A model generated the notes under the pieces. The model did not search any database. It saw only the letters and a list, made by a program, of their open reading frames with translations, and was not told where the DNA came from. A stretch of 64,000 bases of DNA, taken from the NCBI RefSeq assembly GCF_000384655.1, contig NZ_ARQI01000119.1, positions 1 through 64,000 of the forward strand. The letters are read 5' to 3'. Both the position numbers and the translations under genes were made by a program. Of this stretch, positions 50,712-52,777 are shown one piece after another; position 1 is the first letter of the stretch; the number at the start of each line of letters is the position of its first letter. The DNA comes from Brachyspira innocens ATCC 29796. GTDB lineage: Bacteria > Spirochaetota > Brachyspiria > Brachyspirales > Brachyspiraceae.

Positions 50712-52777
50712 ATGAAAAAAGAAAGCATTAATATAGCCGACAGAAAATATAATATAATATAATATATTATAGTAATTCAGATAAAAATGCAAGATACAAC
50801 TACGTACTTCCTTCACTTAAAACATTAATATCAGAAAACAGAGAATGCTTTATAGTTTCCAAAATATCAGGGGATAAACCATACAGCGTAGAGAAAGCAG
50901 TAATTTTAGAAGATGATAGTATATTCACATACGAGTTTAATGATTTTCAGGCAGTAAAGGAAGATATAAAAGGTATAATAACTAATTATAAGGATAAAAT
51001 ACTATTCTTTGAAATAGGAGTATTTGCCGATTTATACAGCTATTTAAGAAGTCATTTTGAACTTGATATAATAAACTATCTTTCAGATGACGGAAAAATA
51101 GATATTTCTAATATTGAAGATAATGTGTTTGATAAACTTCCTATAAAGAAAGATAAACTTATAAAAAGAATGCAGAACTATTATGATGATAATAAAAACT
51201 GCATACTTCCTTCTTATAAAGTTCAGGATAGTATAATCAAAGATAGTATAATAAAAGAAGATAGAAAACCTTCTAATAAAGTGCTTTACTCAGTATATCA
51301 TCTTCCAGTGCTTGAGAAGATATATTATTTTGAAAATTGTAAATTAAATTTAAAAGACATAGCAGATATTTTCTTTAGTGATGATAATGATGATAATAAT
51401 GAAAATATTGATAAATCTTTATTAAAAAAGATTCTTTCTAATAAAATAAAATTAATAGAAGAAAGTATTAAGCATTTAAATTATACTGAATTAACAAAAA
51501 GAATAGATAATTTTAAATATCTTGAAGAGATTTCATTATCTAAAATAATAGAACATATATTCTCTTTATATTATGTTTTTCATCATGATAGCGTATTAAA
51601 AGACAGTTATATTAGTTCCATTAGTATAATACTAGATACAGAAATTAAAGAGTATTTATCATTATCAAAATATTTCTCTAATGATGCTATATATTTTGAT
51701 AAGATGTTTTATCATTTTGCAGAAAAAATAAAATATTTATATCTTGAAGGGTATACAGATATTTTTTCTATAGGATTAGATTTTTCAGAAGAAGAGTTAA
51801 TAAAATATCAGTATGATGAAGTTATTAAATTATGTATAGATAAGTACAATGAAATGAAAAATGAATTAAAAGAATTATTTTCTGAACTATATTCAAATAA
51901 TAATATATATGGAATGCATAATTTAAATCATGAAAATTATTTTGAAAATGAAAATAAATTTAAATCCATTTTAAATTACGGACATCATTATGTTAGTTTA
52001 ATTCTAAAAAATTATGATTTTCTAAAGTTTTTATGCTCATTTATAAGGTTTAGAATTGATTATGATATTGTTGAAAGTGGAGAGGATATTGTATTTTCTA
52101 ATATAGAAAGTAAAGAATACGGCAAGAAAAAAATGCATAATATAGATTCTATTATAGATGATATAAATACATTTTTTTATATAGCAGAGAGCATGTACTT
52201 TTTTAATCCTTATATGGCAAAAAGCTACAAAGATATACTTGATTCTTTGCATTCATCTTTAATGTATTTATACCGCTCAGCAGAAGAAAATAAAAAAGAC
52301 TATAACCTTTTAAATGAATTAAAAAATCTTGATGTGAAAGATGTAAAAAAGTATGAGGATATATTTATTAATAACGCTTTATTCTTTTATAATCAGGAAA
52401 ATATTTATAATGAGGAAGATGAAAAAAGGCTTGAAGAGAAAGTGAAAGAAATTGAATATGAAGAAATAAAATTTAAAGAAGAAGAGAATAGGGAGAGAAA
52501 AATATTTTTTGACGCCAATTATAAAACTATATATAAAGCGGTTATGTATGACATCAGACTAAAAGAACATGAAGAATATGATAAAAAATATATAGAAGAG
52601 TCTTTTATAAATGCTCTTGAGTATATGTACAGAGTATCATACTACAAAGAATATTTGATAATTAATAATGCCAACTTAACTAATCAATATAAAAAAAGCG
52701 AAATCCATTTAGAAAGGTATAAAAAATTAAAAACTGCTGACTTATCAAAAGATATAAAAGACATAAAAAATGTATAG
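50712..52777 (+). pseudogene. Large protein of unknown function, frame interrupted at a TATAA repeat
   Basis: The ATG at 50712 follows AAGGA and opens MKKESINIADRKYNII, then hits TAA at 50760 inside (TATAA)3. The frame used from 50762 onward stays open for about 670 codons to 52777. Losing one five-base unit joins the two into a protein of about 686 residues (YNIIYYSNSDKNARYNYVLP at the join). A GTG at 51125 could otherwise give a 550-residue shorter form. The protein is a distant paralogue of 55374-57554 (FEIGVFADLY near 105 against FEIGLFIDVY; NLNHENY against NLNHDDY). No known domain recognised; mostly helical, rich in Tyr, Lys and Glu. Confidence 0.75.
50748..50766 (+). repeat. TATAA pentanucleotide repeat in coding sequence
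   Basis: Three full TATAA units (50748-50762) followed by TATA, thirteen codons after the start of the 50712 gene. Copy number determines whether the downstream frame is joined to the start. Confidence 0.85.

Follow-up and report, generated by a model that had tools for sequence, protein, structure and literature searches.

A private AATAT tandem duplication and the probable recent inactivation of a large gene beside terL in Brachyspira innocens ATCC 29796

In the window analysed here, a stretch of 64,000 nucleotides from Brachyspira innocens ATCC 29796 (hereafter the source genome), a large gene starting at position 50712 is put out of frame by a short tandem tract of the pentamer AATAT. We consider this, with a probability of about 75%, to be the ordinary recent inactivation of a chromosomal gene by a tandem-duplication frameshift and not a conserved contingency locus. 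The first-pass annotation had proposed that a surface- or phage-associated gene undergoes contingency-type phase variation, a proposal not supported in view of orthologues that lack the repeat and a tract below the usual five-unit cut-off; recent decay, which it had also allowed, is the reading best supported, by the private tract and the constrained, otherwise clean frame.

Frames, start site and tandem tract of the gene at 50712

The features of the locus are listed in Table 1. As the first-pass annotation had stated, an ATG with a good ribosome-binding site opens a frame that stops at codon 17 within the pentamer repeat, the codons from 50712 being ATG AAA AAA GAA AGC ATT AAT ATA GCC GAC AGA AAA TAT AAT ATA ATA TAA; its further claim of a frame open for about 670 codons beyond the repeat was also confirmed (674 codons to 52777), the offset between the two frames being 5 bp. 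The upstream ATG had been taken as the probable true start from the alignment with the paralogue at 55374. The start itself stands: eight of the nine orthologues have the ATG at the matching position, the exception being that of the species G005, which has ATT, and the orthologues give better support than the paralogue, whose likeness at the N-terminus is weak.

The tract, to which TRF gave the extent 50746-50771, occupies codons 12-19 of the gene, and its period of 5 is not divisible by 3. When the window was shuffled 100 times with its dinucleotides preserved, the 20-mer never appeared; a chance origin of the tract is unexpected, as with any microsatellite. Within the long frame from 50753, no ATG, GTG or TTG precedes the GTG at 51125, and the sites found by a promoter scan near the start of the gene were no more numerous than in shuffles. 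Besides the pentamer tract, the gene holds two more tandem duplications, one of 15 bp and one of 9 bp, both in frame; elsewhere in the window, about seven copies of a 102-bp TPR-like repeat lie at 28787-29500, within the ORF 28633-30771.

Table 1. Features of the locus around the broken gene and terL in the window (G numbers denote genomes of other Brachyspira species)
Feature	Position	Strand	Remarks
terL of the Brachyspira gene transfer agent, split	48417..49818	-	Pfam Terminase_3, Terminase-T7_RNaseH-like
Private 22-bp tandem duplication	49026..49069	-	Frameshifts terL
Ribosome-binding site AAGGA	50698..50702	+	9 nt spacer to ATG; kept in G004, G005, G009, G015
Ancestral start and truncated 16-codon frame	50712..50762	+	ATG 50712-50714, TAA 50760-50762
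Perfect AATAT/TATAA tandem tract	50746..50766	+	21 bp, 4.2 units, private to source genome; source of frameshift
Remainder of broken gene, other frame	50753..52777	+	674 open codons, no further lesion
15-bp tandem repeat, in frame	51227..51258	+	Longer than in close relatives
9-bp tandem duplication, in frame	51379..51402	+	Close relatives without it
HTH protein, probable terS, intact	54828..55298	-	PHROG 309, 23444
Intact distant paralogue, 726 aa	55374..57554	+	About 30% identical to broken gene, N-terminus weakly similar
MerR_1 HTH protein	57750..58433	+	Possible profile-level relative of the central segment of the broken gene

Orthologues and selection in the genus Brachyspira

When 26 Brachyspira species, with one genome per species, were searched at the DNA level, ten well-alignable gene starts were obtained, including that of the source genome, and these starts were aligned. 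All nine orthologues carry two AATAT-like units followed, in frame, by a Lys/Arg codon, and the third and fourth perfect AATAT units are found in the source genome alone. Since the repeat is private to the source genome, it does not represent an ancestral switch. By parsimony, the source branch would have seen at least one base substitution within the Lys/Arg codon as well as the gain of one unit.

The course of events that we propose starts from the state displayed by the orthologues, in which the two AATAT-like units and the Lys/Arg codon would have been read in frame. A base change at this codon would then have extended the perfect repeat in the source lineage, and replication slippage may subsequently have inserted one 5-bp unit, so that translation from the conserved ATG should now end at codon 17 because of the added unit. 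Judging from the sequence, neither a restart nor a frameshift site nor another start codon would plausibly rescue the product.

The gene is full-length and open in four species (G009, G014, G022 and G023) and nearly so in G008 and G024, where it ends some 25-30 codons early. Other copies are damaged in different ways: the orthologue of G005 (L045, 8806) has lost the start ATG and is open for the rest, that of G004 has lost 1 bp in the late part of the gene, that of G015 shows a 1-bp insertion in an A-run together with an assembly gap, and only remnants are present in G006 and G021. The source genome itself holds a private disabling lesion against intact orthologues, the pattern of a pseudogene. 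Independent losses in several close species indicate that the gene is dispensable. The profile of the gene family gave no match in 9 of the 26 species, one of which (G018) has distant members; every named relative found for the broken gene comes from Brachyspira, one of them from Brachyspira sp. G79, and among 393 genomes sampled in the phylum none outside the genus matched.

The broken frame still bears the mark of selection. The pairwise dN/dS between the source genome and G005 or G009 is 0.15-0.22, and the codon changes private to the source genome comprise 25 synonymous and 13 non-synonymous ones (p = 5e-11 against neutrality). The break is considered recent because these private changes are mostly synonymous and no second disabling lesion was detected across about 670 codons. 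This persisting constraint fits a very young lesion and equally a gene that is sometimes ON, and does not separate the two. The private changes in the start-less copy of G005 (17 non-synonymous, 9 synonymous) suggest relaxed selection on that copy.

Protein family and the neighbouring terL

The product of the broken gene received no assignment in Pfam, PHROG, PADLOC or NCBIfam and showed no recognised surface-antigen features, and neither this gene nor the paralogue at 55374 nor terL matched the viral and phage collections; the surface or phage association assumed by the first-pass annotation was not supported. In its intact form the protein has about 675-725 aa and probably serves as a regulator specific to Brachyspira, with a MerR-like segment that would bind DNA; a possible candidate for this segment lies at about 51150-51420. 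The leads to MerR were weak (CueR 0.018, GlnR 0.11), and no family member reached the cut-off of Pfam MerR_1; in hhalign, the central segment matched the MerR_1 family of the protein at 57750 at 94% with the paralogues included and at 29% without them. The predicted model from a six-sequence alignment (pLDDT 43.5, too low to judge the fold) places two short helices at the MerR-like segment. What the family may share with the MerR-family HTH regulators is this profile-level match between its central segment and the neighbouring MerR_1 proteins; it differs from typical MerR proteins in being much larger (about 700 aa), mostly helical and below the Pfam cut-off. A match of the G009 protein to Pfam TBCC_N (5.9e-5, below cut-off) was read as a coiled-coil artefact.

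The family usually sits next to terL, and paralogues of similar size occur at the terL locus both here (55374) and in G018. In the latter, the terL locus (L049, 8181-15938) encodes a row of large related proteins together with MerR_1 proteins, which suggests that the family beside terL has expanded repeatedly there. The orthologue of the probable terS directly adjoins terL in G018; here the two genes are 5 kb apart, and the interval holds other genes besides the broken one.

The terL of the Brachyspira gene transfer agent VSH-1/BhGTA (Brachygtaviriformidae) is single copy and highly conserved (PMC9662315); the gene in the window was identified as terL from Pfam and PHROG matches and conservation, and not from an accession of that paper. 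The link of the broken gene to the agent is that its neighbour is the agent's terL; in contrast to the described agent (PMC9662315), terL itself is broken here, and the broken gene is not known to belong to the agent and is lacking in many species of Brachyspira. The ATPase half lies at 49045-49818 and the nuclease half at 48417-49076, both on the minus strand. In 21 of the 23 species that have terL it forms one full-length ORF, the source genome and G010 being the two with a split gene; a conserved two-gene arrangement, considered from tblastn pieces in relatives, was dropped because the relatives have a single ORF. With 18 synonymous and 6 non-synonymous private codon changes, terL is still constrained.

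For a frameshift screen, about 480 kb sampled from the source genome was compared with 1.3 Mb of G009, and 160 G009 genes were found intact in the source genome, with terL as the sole frameshift; the gene at 50712 was scored intact because its break falls within the first 16 codons. Two fresh tandem-duplication breaks are thus located 1.7 kb apart in an assembly in which such breaks are rare. Their co-occurrence is at most suggestive, since one of the two was the reason for choosing the window. A recent loss of the packaging locus of the agent in the source isolate would explain both.

Alternative readings and significance

Phase variation, in which slipped-strand mispairing at the AATAT tract would toggle the gene within the species and the sequenced clone would be OFF, appears unlikely. 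The locus resembles known SSR contingency loci, such as hsdM (GACGA)n of Haemophilus influenzae (PMC2651432) and opa of Neisseria (PMC5953494), in having an early-codon pentamer of perfect units that puts the gene out of frame, and a long frame free of lesions after it. A gene that is often ON would likewise be expected to show the constraint on that frame and the lack of another lesion. The tract of 4.2 units stays below the usual SSR cut-off of 5 units (PhasomeIt; PMC6321876, PMC5953494), although a four-unit pentamer, hsdM (GACGA)4 of H. influenzae, is cited in PMC2651432 as switching at high rate. At a contingency locus the repeat would be retained and vary in number among orthologues; here every orthologue holds two units followed by a Lys/Arg codon. 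The gene is also of an unusual class for switching, as the database searches gave no sign of a surface, glycan or restriction-modification function. Nor is there a genus-wide set of AATAT tracts within genes: twelve further tracts of the type (AATAT)4-9 were examined across the genus and all lie outside long ORFs, two of them overlapping just short ORFs (64 and 77 aa) that look spurious. The reversed-pattern control of this pentamer search was uninformative, because an AATAT repeat reversed is the same repeat. No report of SSR switching in Brachyspira was found among the listed titles and abstracts on Brachyspira and phase variation.

A sequencing or assembly error, in which the real tract would have an in-frame number of units and the gene would be intact, would account for the otherwise clean and constrained frame and for the similar oddity in terL, and the source assembly is a 3.28-Mb draft in 130 contigs (the window is on a contig of 78.9 kb). 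It is slightly less probable still, given that the 21-bp tract and the 44-bp duplicated region of terL both fit inside ordinary read lengths, that the gene screen found terL alone frameshifted against 160 intact genes, and that the tract includes a Lys/Arg to Ile codon change which an error in unit count would not produce. Very improbable in our estimate is a reversible silencing of the whole locus, in which terL (22-bp unit) and the adjacent MerR-like regulator (5-bp unit) would slip back and forth so that a fraction of the population makes particles, even though the terL duplication could in principle revert. That programmed frameshifting or an alternative start yields the long-frame product despite the break is hardly credible: the usable stretch at 50751-50762 is without an X XXY YYZ slippery heptamer, start codons are absent near the tract, and the GTG at 51125, which has GAAG upstream and would encode 550 aa including the MerR-like segment, is GTA in the four close relatives.

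Recent inactivation by a frameshift agrees with what is seen in recent tandem-duplication pseudogenes, namely a private duplication, a frame otherwise intact and independent damage in sister species; the sole notable difference from ordinary frameshift pseudogenes is the second private tandem duplication that breaks terL. The comparison of orthologues allows a private frameshift to be told from a contingency locus, and thereby removes a tempting claim of phase variation that is without support. The by-product of the analysis carries more weight: the only terL that could be identified for a domesticated gene transfer agent is broken in the source strain, which leads to a checkable prediction on DNA packaging by the source isolate.
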